A stretch of 64,000 nt of DNA, taken from assembly GCF_000473365.1 (NCBI RefSeq), contig NZ_KI421517.1, forward strand, positions 4,130,001 to 4,194,000. The letters run 5' to 3'. A program made the translations under genes and the position numbers. Source of the stretch: Adhaeribacter aquaticus DSM 16391. GTDB taxonomy: Bacteria; Bacteroidota; Bacteroidia; Cytophagales; Hymenobacteraceae. Below are positions 35,841-43,109 of this stretch, piece after piece (position 1 is the first letter of the stretch; every line of letters begins with the position of its first letter). Under the pieces are notes generated by a model that saw only the letters and a list, made by a program, of their open reading frames with translations, had not been told where the DNA came from and searched no databases.

Positions 35841-36190
35841 TTAAAATATTTAAATCCTGGTTATTGTCTTAGTAATTTTATTTTAGTCATATTAGTTTCC
35901 TAATACTAAAATTTTTTAATTTTTCTAAGAAACAAAAACAGGTGATAAATAATTAAACAGACACTACCGGCTTTAAATACTGTGATTAAACTTATTTAAA
36001 GCAATTTATTTTTAAAACAGGTCTGATGCAGCTACTAAAAGGAATAATTTGTTTTGCACTAAACAAATAATAATTTAGCTCAGCTTATATTAGAGAGTTC
36101 CTTTATAATATAATATTAATAAAAAAACCCTTCCTGCTTTCTCAAATATATGAGTGGGCAGGAAGGGTTTAATTTAAAGCTAAAAAGGAA
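35841..36190. other. Intergenic region between the protease and the aromatic operon
   Basis: 350 AT-rich bases. The only clear element is the terminator at 36125-36170 for the minus-strand aromatic operon. No promoter box for the protease could be picked out. Confidence 0.4.
36125..36170 (-). terminator. Terminator of the aromatic amino acid operon
   Basis: AAACCCTTCCTGC and GCAGGAAGGGTTT form 13-bp arms, with an inner CTCA/TGAG pair, and on the minus strand a run of Ts follows. It sits 20 bp after the end of the last operon gene. Confidence 0.88.
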
Positions 36191-37294
36191 TTATGCTTCC
36201 ACTTTACCGTTTACAATCTCTGTTTGAATATTGATAGAGTTTGTATGGATAGTCTGGAAAATAGCACGAACAAATTTTTCGTCCAGACCTTCATTTATGC
36301 CTTTGTTTAAAATATCTTCTAACATTTGGTCCCAACGTTTAACCTGTAAAATGGTCATGTTGTGATCTTTTTTGTACTGACCAATTGTACGGGATAAACG
36401 TGTACGACGAGCAAGCACCTCAATTAATTCTTTATCTACCTGGTCAATGTTCCGACGCATATCTTCCAACAGGTGGTGATCTTCACCGTCTGCATCTTCT
36501 TTGGTGAAACGGATGCTTGATAATAATTTATGTAAATCAGCAGGTGTTACTTGTTGTGATGCATCACTTAAAGCTACTGATGGATCAATGTGTGTTTCGA
36601 TCATTAAACCGTCCATAGCTAAATCCATTGCTTTCTGTGCAATTGGCTGCAATAAATCACGTCTACCAGCAATGTGGCTTGGATCGCAGATTAATGGCAA
36701 CTCTGGCACTAAACGTTTGAACTCAATAGCGCTATTCCATTTTGGTTGGTTCCGGTAAGGCGCATTATCAAAAGTAGAAAAACCTCTGTGAATTCCACCT
36801 AACTGGCGTATACCAGCCTGGTTTAAACGCTCAATAGCACCTAACCATAATTGTAAATCCGGGTTAACCGGGTTTTTAACTAAAACCGGAATATCAACAC
36901 CGCGTAAAGCATCAGCAATTTCCTGTACAGTAAATGGGTTTACTGTAGTACGGGCACCTATCCAAAGAATATCGATACCAGCCTTTAATGACTCATAAAC
37001 GTGTTGGGTATTAGCAACTTCAACCGCTACTTTTAAACCAGTCTCTTGTTTTACACGCTTTAACCATTTTAGAGCAGGAATACCAACACCTTCAAAGCTA
37101 TTTGGACGCGTACGTGGTTTCCAAACACCAGCCCGGTAAACGGTTACGCCTGGCACGTTGTTCTTGATTAAATGAGCAGTCTGTAAAACTTGCTCTTCCG
37201 ATTCGGCGCTGCAAGGGCCGGCAATTAAAAGCGGTGACCCATCTTCATTAATTAAAGCCGAAGTTGGCAACAGGTCGATACTTGGTTTACTCAT
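36191..37294 (-). CDS. Bifunctional DAHP synthase/chorismate mutase
   Basis: 367 residues. Residues 1-265 are a type I beta/alpha DAHP synthase of the Bacteroidota form (SPLLIAGPCSAESEEQVLQTA, YRAGVWKPRTRPNSFEGVG, HRGFSTFDNAPYRNQPKW, LICDPSHIAGRRDLLQPIAQKAMDLAMDGLMIETH). Residues about 280-360 are an AroQ chorismate mutase helix bundle (MRRNIDQVDKELIEVLARRTRLSRTIGQYKKDHN). It joins the first shikimate step to the branch-point step chorismate to prephenate. It is the last gene of pheA-aminotransferase-DAHP/CM, 79 bp after the aminotransferase. Feedback control may come through the fused mutase domain, as in related fusions. Confidence 0.95.
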   Translation of the reverse strand: MSKPSIDLLPTSALINEDGSPLLIAGPCSAESEEQVLQTAHLIKNNVPGVTVYRAGVWKPRTRPNSFEGVGIPALKWLKRVKQETGLKVAVEVANTQHVYESLKAGIDILWIGARTTVNPFTVQEIADALRGVDIPVLVKNPVNPDLQLWLGAIERLNQAGIRQLGGIHRGFSTFDNAPYRNQPKWNSAIEFKRLVPELPLICDPSHIAGRRDLLQPIAQKAMDLAMDGLMIETHIDPSVALSDASQQVTPADLHKLLSSIRFTKEDADGEDHHLLEDMRRNIDQVDKELIEVLARRTRLSRTIGQYKKDHNMTILQVKRWDQMLEDILNKGINEGLDEKFVRAIFQTIHTNSINIQTEIVNGKVEA

Positions 37295-37373: not shown

Positions 37374-38546
37374 TTAAGCATTAATTAATAAAGCTTTAAC
37401 ATTTTTAATTGCTTTCCGGATATTCTCTTCAGTTGCACAAACCGAAATCCGCACGTACCGTTCCCCGTTGGAACCAAATATTTTACCGGGCGTTAAAAAT
37501 ACATTTGCCTGGTAAAGAATACGATCTAAAAATGCTTCTACATCTTCCACATCATCCGGAACCCGGCCCCAAACAAACATTCCGGTAGCTTCTTTCGAAT
37601 ATTTACAATGCAAAACATCCAGTAACTCATAAACTAATTCCCGGCGTTTCCGGTAAACCGCATTGCGCTCCTGGTGCCAGTTATCAGAATTACTTAAAGC
37701 CTGTACCGCTGCATGCTGAACAGGAAGAAACATGCCGGAATCCAGGTTACTTTTCACGGCAATAATGGCATCAATATATTCCTTCTGTCCGGCTACCATA
37801 CCAATACGCCAACCAGCCATGTTAAAGGATTTACTCATAGAGTTTAACTCTACACAACAATCCATAGCACCTGCTGCATGTAAAATGCTAATTGGAGCTT
37901 TTTCGTTCAAAACCAGGCTATAAGGATTATCATGAACGATTAAAATTTCACGTTCCCGGGCAAATTCAATTATCTTTTCAAAATCTGCCTCAGAAGCCAA
38001 TGCGCCGGTAGGCATGTTCGGGTAGTTCAGGAACATTAATTTAACCCGGCTTGTATCCAAAGCTCTTAAAGCAGCCAAATCTGGTAACCAGTTGGTATCC
38101 TCAGTCAGGTCAAAGAACACAGGTTCGGCATTCACTAACTTGGCTACGGCAGCATAAGCCGGATACCCCGGATTAGGTACCAAAACCTGATCTCCCGGAT
38201 TTAAAAAAGCCATAGCAATATGAAAAATACCTTCTTTTGATCCCAGCAAAGGCAATACCTCTGTTTCCGGGTTTAAGGTAACATTGTATGTGCTGCTATA
38301 CCAGTTTGCAAAAGCCTGGCGCAAAGCCAGAATAGACCTGTATGGTTGGTAACCATGGTTTTTTGGGTTTTGTGCTGATTGGGTTAATGCGGTTACAGTT
38401 TCATCCGAAGCCGGTAAATCCGGGTCACCAATACCTAAATTTACCACATCATGCCCCTGAGCCATCAGGTTACGTACTTCAGCTAATTTACGGGCGAAGT
38501 AATATTCCTGCACATGGTCTAAACGATTTGCCTTTGGGATAATCAT
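37374..38546 (-). CDS. Pyridoxal-phosphate aminotransferase, aromatic/aspartate type
   Basis: 390 residues, class I/II aminotransferase. Signature blocks are VVNLGIGDPDLPASD, PLLGSKEGIFHIAMAF, PNPGYPAY, MFLNYPNMPTGALA and the PLP lysine in ELNSMSKSFNMAGWRIG. Position between pheA and DAHP synthase/chorismate mutase strongly implies a role in phenylpyruvate and 4-hydroxyphenylpyruvate transamination. It overlaps nothing but sits one base downstream of pheA, so it is tightly coupled. Substrate range (aspartate, aromatic or LL-DAP type) is inferred from context. Confidence 0.92.
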   Translation of the reverse strand: MIIPKANRLDHVQEYYFARKLAEVRNLMAQGHDVVNLGIGDPDLPASDETVTALTQSAQNPKNHGYQPYRSILALRQAFANWYSSTYNVTLNPETEVLPLLGSKEGIFHIAMAFLNPGDQVLVPNPGYPAYAAVAKLVNAEPVFFDLTEDTNWLPDLAALRALDTSRVKLMFLNYPNMPTGALASEADFEKIIEFAREREILIVHDNPYSLVLNEKAPISILHAAGAMDCCVELNSMSKSFNMAGWRIGMVAGQKEYIDAIIAVKSNLDSGMFLPVQHAAVQALSNSDNWHQERNAVYRKRRELVYELLDVLHCKYSKEATGMFVWGRVPDDVEDVEAFLDRILYQANVFLTPGKIFGSNGERYVRISVCATEENIRKAIKNVKALLINA

Positions 38547-38547
38547 A

Positions 38548-39381
38548 TTATTTAACTCCTCTTTTATAGATACCCAGTATTTTAATTTCTACTACCATAG
38601 GCCTGATTTTTTCAATAGCCGCAGTAAACTCATTATAATCTTCCCACTCCAGATCCAGTAAAATAGTAAACTCATTAGGATCACTTATTATAGGAATAGA
38701 TTGTATCAGGGATAAGTTTATGTGTAATTCCCGGAACACATCCAGGATATTAGCCAACTCGCCTGCCCGGTGGTGCAACTGAAAATTTACGGAAGCTTTA
38801 TTGGCCCCCGATACATCTTTTAAGGGCTTGCCTGAGATAACCATAAAGCGGGTGTAATTCTCTTTATAGTTCTCTATGCATTCCTCTACTATATCCAATC
38901 CATATAATGCCGCTGCCGCTCTGCTGGCTATGGCTGCCACACCAGATAAATTATTTTCTCTGATTTCACGGGCACTTTCAGCAGTATCCGCCGATTCAAT
39001 GGCTTGCATATACGAATGCTCTTCCAGAAAATTAGTGCATTGCAGCAAAGCCATCGGATGGGAGCGTACAATGCGGATATCTTCCAAAGTTTGTCCGGGC
39101 AAAGCCAGCAAATTTTGTTCAATAGGCAAATAAGCTTCTCCAACAATAGAAACCGGGTAGTCGTGCAGCAAAGTATAATTACCCAGTATACTACCAGCTA
39201 AATAATTTTCAATAGCAATTACGCCAAAATCTGCTTCACCATTTTTTACCAAAGCAAAAACCCGTTGAAAGGTCATGCAGGGAATAATGTCAATGGTTTG
39301 GGGAGCAAAATATTGCTGGGCCACTACATCATGGAAAGAAGCAGGACCACCCTGAATAGCTATTTTTAAGTTTGGATTCAT
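38548..39381 (-). CDS. pheA: Prephenate dehydratase
   Basis: 277 residues. The dehydratase domain starts KIAIQGGPASFHDVVAQQYF; it contains DFGVIAIENYLAGSILGNYTLL and the catalytic TRF motif in ENYKENYTRFMVI. The last 80 residues are an ACT domain (VNFQLHHRAGELANILDVFRELHINLSLIQSIPI), which binds phenylalanine for feedback inhibition. It converts prephenate to phenylpyruvate. No chorismate mutase is fused; that activity is in the operon's third gene. Expression is probably controlled by the Phe/Tyr leader and terminator immediately upstream. Confidence 0.96.
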   Translation of the reverse strand: MNPNLKIAIQGGPASFHDVVAQQYFAPQTIDIIPCMTFQRVFALVKNGEADFGVIAIENYLAGSILGNYTLLHDYPVSIVGEAYLPIEQNLLALPGQTLEDIRIVRSHPMALLQCTNFLEEHSYMQAIESADTAESAREIRENNLSGVAAIASRAAAALYGLDIVEECIENYKENYTRFMVISGKPLKDVSGANKASVNFQLHHRAGELANILDVFRELHINLSLIQSIPIISDPNEFTILLDLEWEDYNEFTAAIEKIRPMVVEIKILGIYKRGVK

Positions 39382-39385
39382 AGTA

Positions 39386-39414
39386 ATAAAAAAAGCCCCG
39401 AATTTTCGGGGCTT
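39386..39414 (-). terminator. Attenuator terminator directly before pheA
   Basis: On the minus strand, AAGCCCCGAA pairs perfectly with TTCGGGGCTT around two As, followed by a run of seven to eight Ts. The T-run ends about five bases before the pheA ATG (39381). A terminator in this place makes sense only as a conditional one. A GGGG in the leader (around 39458-39462) can pair with the CCCC of the 5' arm as an antiterminator. Confidence 0.9.
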
Positions 39415-39452
39415 CTGGATTTATATTTTGTTTCTAAACGCAATACTATTCC

Positions 39453-39518
39453 TTAACACCCCAGGGAGGTACTAAAATAGAAGTAGTAGTAAAAGTTTAC
39501 GTTCGGAATTGTTCTCAC
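39453..39518 (-). CDS. Phe/Tyr leader peptide of the pheA operon
   Basis: Minus strand, GTG at 39518 to TAA at 39453, 21 residues: MRTIPNVN then FYYYFYF then STSLGC. Seven consecutive aromatic codons (TTT TAC TAC TAC TTC TAT TTT) are far beyond chance and match the pathway's end products. Starved ribosomes would stall there, leaving the downstream GGGG free to pair with the terminator's 5' arm. With ample charged tRNA the ribosome would reach the stop codon, cover GGGG and allow termination. The GTG start has no Shine-Dalgarno, which is normal for the phylum. The mechanism is inferred. Confidence 0.82.
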   Translation of the reverse strand: MRTIPNVNFYYYFYFSTSLGC

Positions 39519-39539: not shown

Positions 39540-39547
39540 CAATTTTA
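39540..39547 (-). promoter_or_regulatory. Probable promoter -7 box of the pheA leader
   Basis: Minus-strand TAAAATTG differs from TAnnTTTG at one base and would start transcripts near 39532, just before the leader peptide. No clear -33 box. Confidence 0.4.
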
Positions 39548-40389: not shown

Positions 40390-41262
40390 TTATCTTTTTT
40401 TAATTATAGGATTAAAAGCTTTGGTAAAAACAGTAACAGTATCGCCAGGTTGCAAATTAGTTACCTCATCCTCTGTTGCCACTGTTTTAATAATATTATT
40501 CCCAATCAATACATCCAGAATATAAATTACATCACTTTTTTTAATAGCCAGCACCTCGCCAACTAATTGAATTTTACTACTTAGGCGCTCTTTTCCAAAA
40601 ATTTCGGCGGGTGGGCCTTGGGCTATAACCTTTCCCTTATCCAGAGAAATAATCTGGTCTGATAACCGGTAAATTTCTGACAACTGGTGGCTAACCAATA
40701 AAGTAGTTGTTCCGAAAGATTTATGTAACTGATAAATCTGATCTTGCAACAATTGCCGCATTTCCAGGTCTAAAGCAGAAAGGGGCTCATCCAATAAGAG
40801 TATCGGTGGCTTCCGGACCAATGCCCGCACCAAAGCAACTCGCTGTTGCTGCCCTCCCGATAATGTTAATGGTTTCCGATCTGCTAACGAAAGCAAGGAG
40901 GCACGCTGAAGCAAATCATCTATGGCACTTAAGTCTTCTTTGCTTTGTGCGGCATAGACCAAGTTTTCCCGGACAGTCATGTTAGGAAACAAGGCATAAT
41001 CCTGAAAAACAAAACCTATATTTCTTTTCTGAGGTGCAAGGTTAATGTTTTTAGCGGTATCCAGCCAGACCTGGTCATTTACCTGAATGAATCCTGCATC
41101 AGGCTGAACAAGTCCAGCCAATATTTTAAGAATAGTAGTTTTTCCGGCACCTGATTTGCCGTAAAGGGTACAAAAACTACCCATTTCCAAGCGAAAATCC
41201 ACGTCCAAGTTCAGCTTACCTTCTGCCATTAGCAATGATTTTTGGATTTGAATCTGAATCAT
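40390..41262 (-). CDS. modC: Molybdate ABC transporter ATP-binding protein
   Basis: 290 residues. Walker A YGKSGAGKTT (34-43), signature LSGGQQQRVALVRALVRKPP, Walker B LLLDEP, then DLEMRQLL and the switch His in LVSHQLSEIYRLSDQI. The C-terminal 70 residues (LVGEVLAIKKSDVIYILDVLIGN... DTVTVFTKAFNPII) form a TOBE domain that binds oxyanion. It powers import of molybdate with ModB. Its start lies one base downstream of the modB stop. The lipoprotein gene converges on it, with only two bases between stops. Confidence 0.95.
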   Translation of the reverse strand: MIQIQIQKSLLMAEGKLNLDVDFRLEMGSFCTLYGKSGAGKTTILKILAGLVQPDAGFIQVNDQVWLDTAKNINLAPQKRNIGFVFQDYALFPNMTVRENLVYAAQSKEDLSAIDDLLQRASLLSLADRKPLTLSGGQQQRVALVRALVRKPPILLLDEPLSALDLEMRQLLQDQIYQLHKSFGTTTLLVSHQLSEIYRLSDQIISLDKGKVIAQGPPAEIFGKERLSSKIQLVGEVLAIKKSDVIYILDVLIGNNIIKTVATEDEVTNLQPGDTVTVFTKAFNPIIKKR

Positions 41263-41263
41263 A

Positions 41264-41935
41264 TTAAAAGGCTTTAACCAGTCGCTTATTCAGCAGATAA
41301 ACTGATAATAATATAGAAAAGGCCAGTATCAGCAAAATGAAAGAGTAGATATGGGCCGAAGCATAATCTAATGTTTCAACTTCGTGATAGATGGCAATGG
41401 AAACCACGCGGGTTTGATCTGGAATATTCCCTCCAATCATTAACACTAAACCAAACTCTCCAATGGTATGAGCAAAAGAAAGAACCATCCCGGTTAACAA
41501 AGAGGGTTTTATATTAGGCAATATTACTTTTAGCAAAGTTTCCAGTTTAGATTTTCCTAAGGTATAAGAAGCTTCTTTTAAAGAAGAAGGAATTGCTTCT
41601 AAACCTGCCTGCACCGGTTGTACCATAAATGGCAAACTATATATAATAGAACCAACCACCAGACCGGCAAATGAAAAAACTAGTTGCAAATCAAAATTTT
41701 CGCTTAAAAATTTCCCTAAGGCCCTACTAGGACTAAAGGCTAATAATAAATAAAAACCGAGAACAGAAGGCGGTAATACAAGTGGTAAACTAATAATAGC
41801 CTCTACAACAGGTTTAAAACGGGAAGTAGCATTAGCCAACCACAAGGCCACGGGTATGCCTATAATTAGGAGCAAAGCAGTTGTAACGGTAGCCAGCTGC
41901 AACGTAAGCCATATAGGTTGCCAATCCAATGCCAT
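41264..41935 (-). CDS. modB: Molybdate ABC transporter permease
   Basis: 223 residues with about five membrane helices. The EAA-type loop contains the coupling motif EASYTLGKSKLETLLKVILPNIKPSLLTGMVLSFAHTIGEFGLVLMIGGNIP, characteristic of ModB and CysW-like permeases. Its ATG overlaps the stop of the upstream Mop gene by one base (TGATG), so translation is coupled. It should pair as a homodimer with two ModC. Confidence 0.95.
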   Translation of the reverse strand: MALDWQPIWLTLQLATVTTALLLIIGIPVALWLANATSRFKPVVEAIISLPLVLPPSVLGFYLLLAFSPSRALGKFLSENFDLQLVFSFAGLVVGSIIYSLPFMVQPVQAGLEAIPSSLKEASYTLGKSKLETLLKVILPNIKPSLLTGMVLSFAHTIGEFGLVLMIGGNIPDQTRVVSIAIYHEVETLDYASAHIYSFILLILAFSILLSVYLLNKRLVKAF

Positions 41936-42342
41936 CAGTAAGTTTTTTGCATTATGGACACCTCATTTGTTTTTACCAGACCTATAACATGATCCCCAAT
42001 GAGTAAATTCAGTGCTTTTACCGATTGGGTGGTTATTATAGCGCAAAGAATCTGTCCTTTATAATCCAGGTAAACACTGGATAAGATTTTACCACTTATT
42101 ATTTTAGTAATGCTGCCAGGAAAACAATTTCGCGAACTAAGCCCACCAGACAAATTTTTCCCAATAGCCATTTCTGTTTCCTTAAAAACCATAATTACTT
42201 CCTGGCCAATTTTGAGATAAGGAGCTGTATCGGGAGTATCAATAACGAGTGAATAAAATTGTTCTTCCCAAGCGGCAATGGTTATTAACGAAATATCCTC
42301 GCCCGATTCTATTTGCGAAATAATACCTAAAACCTGATTCAT
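41935..42342 (-). CDS. Di-Mop molybdate-binding TOBE protein
   Basis: 135 residues made of two TOBE/Mop-like halves: residues 1-65 (VLGIISQIESGEDISLITIAAWEEQFYSLVI...GQEVIMVFKETEMAIGK) and 70-133 (FPGSITKIISGKILSSVYLDYKGQILCAIITTQSVKALNLLIGDHVIGLVKTNEVSIM). Such domains bind molybdate or tungstate in storage or regulatory proteins. It lies between modA and modB, an unusual insertion in the common modABC order, and there is a separate TOBE domain already on ModC. It may buffer the anion in the cytoplasm. No DNA-binding ModE part is present. Confidence 0.82.
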   Translation of the reverse strand: MNQVLGIISQIESGEDISLITIAAWEEQFYSLVIDTPDTAPYLKIGQEVIMVFKETEMAIGKNLSGGLSSRNCFPGSITKIISGKILSSVYLDYKGQILCAIITTQSVKALNLLIGDHVIGLVKTNEVSIMQKTY

Positions 42343-42356
42343 TACCTGAGAACTAT

Positions 42357-43109
42357 TTACTTTACACTATATCCGTATTTTGTAAATATAGCTTTAGCTT
42401 TGGTACTATACAGAAAATTATAAAAAAGCCGGGCATTCTTCCAGTTTCTTTTTTTAGCCCCATTTAATAAAACAGCACTTTGGGCAATAGGGGAGTACGC
42501 TTTTTTGCTGATTTCTACCCAGTTGCCTTTTACTTTCATAGCAGGCTCCAGTACCACCGATTTGGCCGTAAAACCTAAATCAACTGCCCCTGACAAAACA
42601 TACTGATTCACTTGGGCAACACTTTCTCCATTTACTATTTTAGGTTTAACCGCTGCATTTACATTAAAATAACTCAAGACTTGCAGGGCTGCTGCCCCAT
42701 AGGGTGCCGTTTGAGCATTTGCCACCGCTATTTTTTTAATAGCAGGAGATAACACAACTGGTACCCCTTTAGTTAAATCTATATTCTTAGTAGTCCAAAG
42801 TACTAAGGCGCCATAAGCATATATTTTAGGTTTGCTTGCGGCTAAACCAGCTTTCTCCAAAGCTGCCGGATAATGAGTATCTGCCGATAAAAGAATATCA
42901 AAAGGAGCGCCTTGCTGTATTTGGGTAGTCAGCTTGCCAGAAGAGCCAATAATCAGTTCCAGTTCTGCACCCGTTTCTTTTTCAAATGCCTGTTTCAGTA
43001 ACTCCGCCACAAATTGCGCATTGGCTGCCACTGCCACCCGGACTTTTTGCGCCTGGCCACAAGTATTAATGCCCAAAAATAAGGCAAGAATCAAAAAGTA
43101 TCGGTACAT
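42357..43109 (-). CDS. modA: Molybdate-binding periplasmic protein
   Basis: 250 residues with a signal peptide MYRYFLILALFLGINTCGQAQ. The fold is a type II periplasmic binding protein: RVAVAANAQFVAELLKQAFEKETGAELELIIGSSGKLTTQIQQGAPFDILLSADTHYPAAL, then ANAQTAPYGAAALQVL and GESVAQVNQYVLSGAVDLGFTAKSVV. These residues form the oxyanion pocket of ModA. The Cys17 in NTCGQ may make it a lipoprotein. It is the first gene of modA-mop-modB-modC. No ModE binding site could be identified upstream. Confidence 0.94.
   Translation of the reverse strand: MYRYFLILALFLGINTCGQAQKVRVAVAANAQFVAELLKQAFEKETGAELELIIGSSGKLTTQIQQGAPFDILLSADTHYPAALEKAGLAASKPKIYAYGALVLWTTKNIDLTKGVPVVLSPAIKKIAVANAQTAPYGAAALQVLSYFNVNAAVKPKIVNGESVAQVNQYVLSGAVDLGFTAKSVVLEPAMKVKGNWVEISKKAYSPIAQSAVLLNGAKKRNWKNARLFYNFLYSTKAKAIFTKYGYSVK

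Follow-up and report, generated by a model that had tools for sequence, protein, structure and literature searches.

The locus upstream of pheA in Adhaeribacter aquaticus DSM 16391 raises the question of whether a short open reading frame rich in aromatic codons, followed by a hairpin and a T-run, forms an attenuator that responds to phenylalanine and tyrosine. The whole stretch of DNA analysed, 64,000 nucleotides long, is referred to here as the window. Judged from sequence and folding models, the reading we favour, at a probability of roughly nine in ten, is that leader and hairpin form a transcription attenuator, mediated by the ribosome and responsive to the charging of Phe and Tyr tRNAs, for the operon pheA - aminotransferase - DAHP synthase/chorismate mutase. 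The features concerned are listed below.

39540..39547, minus strand: promoter -7-like element, TAAAATTG, one mismatch to the Bacteroidota consensus (motif).
39453..39518, minus strand: leader open reading frame of 21 codons, MRTIPNVNFYYYFYFSTSLGC, GTG start at 39518, TAA at 39455-39453 (direct reading).
39497..39504, minus strand: region 1, GAACGTAA, 5' arm of the outer protector stem (fold and comparison of swaps in the genus).
39474..39494, minus strand: control codons F-Y-Y-Y-F-Y-F (direct reading).
39458..39463, minus strand: region 2, UGGGGU, in the final part of the leader, putative 5' half of the antiterminator (pairing, covariation and ribosome model).
39436..39443, minus strand: 3' arm of the outer protector stem, TTGCGTTT, 3' of the leader stop (fold and swap comparison).
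39407..39412, minus strand: region 3, GCCCCG, common to antiterminator and terminator (fold, pairing and covariation).
39388..39416, minus strand: intrinsic terminator (regions 3:4) with T-run (sequence and fold).
38548..39381, minus strand: pheA, prephenate dehydratase (domain match, PF00800).
37374..38546, minus strand: class I/II aminotransferase (domain match, PF00155).
36191..37294, minus strand: DAHP synthase fused to chorismate mutase type II (domain matches, PF00793 and PF01817).
36121..36169, minus strand: hairpin and T-run directly 3' of the third gene (read by eye), the probable end of the operon.

The sequence-only reading had described a leader of 21 residues, running from the GTG at 39518 to the TAA at 39453 and holding seven consecutive aromatic codons, and both were present on direct reading. 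The GTG start is backed by three relatives from the genus (G001, G005 and G006), in which an ATG stands eight codons 5' of the run as the start codon does in the window, while in the remaining four the leader starts further upstream than the position of this GTG. Promoters of Bacteroidota have a -7 element of consensus TAnnTTTG, and the start of the leader RNA was provisionally placed from the element resembling it. The pattern TWY repeated seven times, which corresponds exactly to Phe and Tyr codons, has one occurrence in the window where 0.04 would be expected, and 3 of 100 shuffles contain it at least once. Genome-wide there are 32 matches, many of them overlapping. Inspection covered 19 of the 30 matches with loci, most of the others overlapping these, with C1:4518375 and C1:4556073 left out; the pheA leader was alone among the 19 inspected loci in combining a short open reading frame with a fitting terminator, and none of the 18 others fits as a further attenuator. 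At one site of the same genome (G000:C1:4380677-4380727), TAC repeats amount to 17 Tyr codons in that frame, which is open for 44 codons.

The terminator hairpin (39416-39391) consists of 11 pairs, six of them G-C, with T's reaching 39388, and its fold has a z of -4.6. A hairpin with a T-run in front of pheA had thus been noted correctly, the spacing to the ATG at 39381 being six bases and not about five as first given. The complementarity that had been pointed out between GGGG (39462-39459) and CCCC (39411-39408) is likewise correct and lies within the helix UGGGGU:GCCCCG. Furthermore, in the fold of the window the protector stem pairs as GAACGUAA:UUGCGUUU.

The functions of the operon genes match the amino acids presumably sensed, which counts for the attenuator reading. 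In a Niabella MAG (L009), an open reading frame that we take from its sequence to be tyrA-like lies between the aminotransferase and DAHP/CM genes, so that one operon there plainly serves both Phe and Tyr. The only PF02153 (tyrA-like) match of the A. aquaticus genome lies in the window on the plus strand, in an open reading frame from about 4281. The pheA operon is 35 kb away, and inspection by eye showed no leader at the tyrA-like gene. In g3 loci, e.g. L039, L042 and L045, the DAHP/CM gene lies 5' of the leader, the attenuator being placed between DAHP/CM and pheA. In the window, the nearest long open reading frame upstream of the leader is divergent, leaving no obvious upstream transcript for the terminator to end. 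The window also holds a putative molybdate ABC transporter (40390-43109, minus strand), whose genes we take to be modC, modB and modA; the ATPase, the only one of these scanned, matches ABC_tran, with TOBE below the cut-off.

The mechanism proposed from these parts would operate as follows. Transcription would begin at the -7-like promoter and the leader would be translated as it emerges. If Phe or Tyr were short, the ribosome would stall in FYYYFYF, leaving region 2 free to pair with region 3; the terminator would then be blocked and read-through would allow the operon to be transcribed. When both amino acids are plentiful, a ribosome reaching the stop codon would cover region 2, the 3:4 terminator would form and transcription would stop just 5' of pheA. 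The spacing of the parts is consistent with this scheme, region 2 starting 38 nt past the start of the run (10-90% range 31-43) and 10 nt past its end (7-15). In the simple folding model applied to all units, a ribosome in the run gives a mean of 7.9 antiterminator pairs, a value that is partly by construction because region 2 was picked as the best complement, and a ribosome at the stop gives 0.14; in 196 of 209 units the model yields at least three pairs with the ribosome in the run and fewer than one at the stop. For the window, the model gives 5.6 pairs for a ribosome at each of the first six codons, 5.0 for the seventh, 0 for the stop codon, and 1.96 if no ribosome is present. Without a ribosome the modelled mean over units is 5.8 pairs, with fewer than three in 50 of 209; since the antiterminator forms in this state in most relatives, an untranslated leader may not be off everywhere. 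The position of the stop codon, covering region 2 and sparing the terminator, is found with the leader's own frame in 157 of 209 units, against 65 and 62 with the other two frames.

It was further asked how widely the arrangement is distributed. PheA was matched in 118 of 150 genomes of the family, 107 of 148 of the order and 172 of 198 of the phylum. A unit was defined as a short open reading frame that starts with ATG or GTG, in which F, Y or W make up at least five of ten residues, with a terminator after it, the whole at most 330 nt before the PheA match. It was looked for in 246 genomes, comprising the full 118 from the family, 49 out of 97 additional genomes at the level of the order and 79 out of 162 at that of the phylum, a selection that includes neither c25 genome of the class. 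Leader and terminator stand before pheA in 163 of the 246 real sequences, compared with 1 of 738 dinucleotide shuffles; the expectation that aromatic codons and terminator would be conserved at this site in related genomes was thereby borne out. Within the family the unit is present in 117 of 118 genomes, and in all 118 if up to 700 nt are allowed. The closest named relative of the window is an Adhaeribacter MAG (82% PheA identity, Hymenobacteraceae in NCBI), which is identical with G006 of g1, the genus to which the window belongs. Judged by kinship and size, g5 may be Hymenobacter-like and g3 Pontibacter-like. The class families c23, c24, c26 and c27 have the unit in 33 of 33 genomes. Other families of the order have it in 9 of 49 (f15 3/9, f19 4/8, f2 1/1, f20 1/9, the rest 0/22), the single f20 case being judged spurious, and elsewhere in the phylum it was found in 4 of 46; these more distant genomes pooled give 13 of 95, one of them the case judged spurious. 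Families f15, f16, f20 and f9 are mostly without the element, as are 42 of 46 genomes outside the class. Among named contigs, the unit precedes pheA in seven of nine from Bacteroidota and in none of 19 from other phyla.

The pairing of the leader end with the 5' arm of the terminator was evaluated by a swap test, in which each unit's own pairing was set against that with arms swapped in from other groups. The count rests on 209 of 214 units, five having been left out by judgement (the two G235 ORFs of f20, a single ORF from each of G282 and G208 of f18, and a GTG ORF of G293 beside the real leader). The antiterminator averages -14.2 kcal/mol for own against -9.85 kcal/mol for swapped arms (-14.03 against -9.79 kcal/mol with all 214 units). 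Own pairing exceeds the mean swap in 198 of 209 units and 95% of the swaps in 100 of 209, counts that are non-independent because the genomes are related; with duplicates within groups removed, the figures are 119 and 62 of 125. The terminator/antiterminator pairing is therefore kept in relatives and covaries between groups, as the sequence-only reading would have it. Examples of covarying helices are GCCGGGACU:AGUCCCGGC in G382 of c23 and, in c26, GUCAGGAUUG:CAAUCCUGAU (G311), CGAGGCUUU:AAAGCCUCG (G390) and CGGGACU:AGUCCCG (G412). Among the genomes of the window's own genus there is little variation in the antiterminator, and the effect is small (own -11.3, swapped -10.5 kcal/mol).

The protector stem behaves differently from group to group. 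Pairing of region 1 with region 2 proper is better than the mean swap in 123 of 209 units and does not pass the swap test as a general rule. In some groups, bases just 5' of the run or at its start pair with bases just 3' of region 2, as in the g3 pairings AACGCA:UGCGUU or AACACA:UGUGUU, and in g6 the pairing is in another register. Own against swapped energies of this outer stem are -14.2 and -7.6 kcal/mol in g1 (eight units), -12.8 and -7.5 in g3 singles, -16.2 and -10.3 in g6, -13.4 and -8.2 in f19, and -10.2 and -7.0 in c26. The difference is clear in these groups and weak or reversed in others, with f15, the g3 second copies and the g5 first copies no better than swaps. The outer stem is better than the mean swap in 148 of 209 units, and in 158 of 209 together with 1:2. 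A protector stem does not appear to be a general part of the attenuator.

These data bear on one alternative, an ordinary terminator accompanied by a chance open reading frame in AT-rich DNA. Runs of seven TWY codons do occur elsewhere in the genome, as such an origin would predict, but chance is hard to reconcile with the single hit in 738 shuffles, the conservation across families and the covariation, and with a divergent upstream ORF there is no obvious transcript that an ordinary terminator would be needed to end. The probability of this alternative is negligible.

The composition of the run was compared among related leaders. In the leaders of the genus (n = 8), each of the seven positions that precede the serine is occupied by F or Y alone; variation is seen at four of these positions, at one of the four in a single genome. 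In g3 and g6, 39 of 58 units fit one pattern, with columns of F/Y except for a fixed S/G column and a single L. Trp occurs within the run in some genomes (c23 2/5, c26 6/18, c27 1, f19 3/4). This exchange of F and Y, and occasionally Trp, suits a sensing of tRNA charging pooled over the aromatic amino acids, and it speaks against the nascent leader being an arrest peptide of the TnaC type that itself detects free Phe or Tyr. Leader peptides are indeed recognisably similar within genera, as an arrest peptide would be; the flanking residues, in contrast, differ between families, and the conserved tail of the peptide coincides with the part that encodes the antiterminator RNA. Arrest by the peptide is accordingly considered very improbable. 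The sensing of both Phe and Tyr by an attenuator, proposed at the outset from the window, is supported by the F/Y exchange at four of seven genus columns and by the operon feeding both products.

A further alternative is that the hairpin acts on translation, masking the start of pheA rather than ending transcription. The end of the T-run only six bases from pheA in the window, and the genus median of 13.5 nt between the hairpin end and the start of the PheA match, are in its favour. However, the distance from hairpin to pheA is not fixed, the medians of the groups spanning 9 nt (g6) to about 60 nt (c27), yet hairpin and T-run are kept, and in the groups with tandem units the median is above 100 nt with both copies pooled. 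A masking role is also at odds with the Algoriphagus-type genomes, in which the element precedes a different gene. Translational masking appears unlikely, and termination of transcription is retained as the preferred reading.

In two of these genomes (L002 and L006, both Algoriphagus), other genes precede pheA, and it is DAHP/CM that has the attenuator in front of it; with pheA turned forward the attenuator is positioned from about 378 in L002, where MLITAAIYFTFFYFYFRSQNRIGAVYVLAKN and a terminator precede DAHP/CM, and from about 367 in L006. When upstream DNA was taken for 20 order-level genomes without the element at pheA, the element was found directly before a DAHP/CM gene in four of four from f19, L006 included, with L321 having a second DAHP/CM gene further upstream. 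As G182 and L006 are one genome, f19 contains Algoriphagus. There are five Algoriphagus-type genomes in all with the attenuator before DAHP/CM. The loci recorded with this arrangement, pheA lying behind other genes, are L002, L006, L310, L311, L321 and L322, one of the last four being from the L006 genome again. For the other 16 genomes (f15 6, f16 2, f20 7, f9 1), no credible element was seen in 1.5 to 9 kb upstream; a weak match in L307, some 5 kb 5' of pheA, was not accepted. To judge from these sequences, the attenuator appears to stay with the aromatic operon when gene order changes.

Two complete units precede pheA in 46 of the 163 genomes bearing a unit (g5 32, g3 9, g4 4, c27 1). In 15 further g5 genomes both leaders are present, the script having assigned one of them without a terminator, and 10 g5 genomes have one leader listed. 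Example loci from g5, g4 and some of g3 are L049, L050, L057 and L143. In 96 of 163 genomes a motif resembling the TAnnTTTG consensus is located 20-45 nt upstream of the leader, or of the first leader where there are two, against 33 of 163 after shuffling of letters; the second tandem leader is preceded by one in 2 of 46, against 6 of 46 shuffled. The scarcity of promoter-like motifs before the second leader suggests that both units share one transcript. A division of labour, in which one copy would serve Phe and its partner Tyr, was not seen in the codon counts, F and Y being mixed in both. Tandem units may provide a sharper or deeper response.

Taken together, it seems likely that the window holds one member of a widespread family of aromatic attenuators in Bacteroidota that lies outside Rfam, brings Phe and Tyr codons together in one leader, joined by Trp in some lineages, stays at the start of the aromatic operon despite changes in gene order, and is doubled in several lineages, where the polymerase would pass two like stops. 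Bacteroidota would thereby gain a well-supported and widespread amino-acid attenuator, whose alignments could found a new RNA family, and the tandem copies pose the question of why two like checkpoints stand in series. Leader-peptide attenuation requires a ribosome close behind RNA polymerase, which would make this family a natural reporter of transcription-translation coupling in Bacteroidota. If the reading is true, its wide conservation implies such coupling in a phylum whose ribosomes, according to the available part of a report, leave Shine-Dalgarno sequences unrecognised (PMC9976891).

Among known systems, the enterobacterial Phe leader (RF01859) has a leader with Phe codons, a terminator before pheA and an antiterminator. 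The element described here shares all three with it, but Tyr codons are about as frequent as Phe codons, the phylum is another one, and an aminotransferase and DAHP/CM follow pheA. At the gathering cut-off the window has no match in Rfam, with Phe_leader RF01859, Bacteroid-trp RF01692 and T-box included in the search; its best match below threshold is Phe_leader, at 35.6 against 55 bits (E 0.024). When matches with an E of 1 or less were allowed, there were 12 across 12 loci, none of which reached its cut-off; Phe_leader matches fall on the leaders of L029, L037, L143 and L131, a single match each to Trp_leader and Thr_leader likewise lies over a leader, and the other six look like chance. The abstract of a 2004 study by Vitreschak reportedly mentions Bacteroidetes/Chlorobi.

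The papers compared in the following are taken from the parts of each that were available. A survey of 2010 stated that, ermC aside, leader-peptide systems had been known from Proteobacteria and Actinobacteria only, until it reported its own case from Firmicutes (PMC2965389). Bacteroid-trp is a candidate cis-element of Bacteroidetes tied by name to Trp (PMC2864571); it resembles the present element in being a cis-element from this group and differs in that the window has no match to it at the cut-off. Candidate uORFs with F and Y occur near shikimate genes (PMC6429828), and uORFC-13-1 precedes aroF in Acholeplasma (PMC8632094); both cases, as far as these excerpts go, place a uORF for Phe (and Tyr) before genes of the aromatic pathway, the second in Acholeplasma. 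For tandem control, the leader of Salmonella mgtCBR has two short ORFs and two attenuators, which answer ATP and proline and which its authors, in the text available, term a singular example (PMC3641672). There the signals are two different ones, whereas here both copies have Phe and Tyr codons and the operon is biosynthetic.

Neither a described Phe/Tyr attenuator in Bacteroidota nor a tandem attenuator of an amino-acid biosynthetic operon was found among the matches listed from the open-licence PubMed Central literature, and the same holds, within that scope, for the leader, the mechanism, the spread, the movement with the operon and the tandem copies reported here. The initial view that a Phe/Tyr attenuator before pheA is not known to be described holds to this extent for leader and mechanism and has to be given up for the site, which had been flagged in Flavobacteriaceae (PMC9723704). 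According to the sections available of that paper, Flavobacterium psychrophilum has a structured 5' element before pheA, common to other genera of Flavobacteriaceae and without Rfam hits, and the regions 5' of amino-acid operons give strong indications of attenuation by leader peptides (PMC9723704). Gene, phylum and the lack of an Rfam hit are the same as here, and those sections give no pheA leader sequence or mechanism. The kind of control is already known and its pheA site is flagged in one family of the phylum; compared by description only, the F. psychrophilum element probably belongs to the same family as the attenuator of A. aquaticus.
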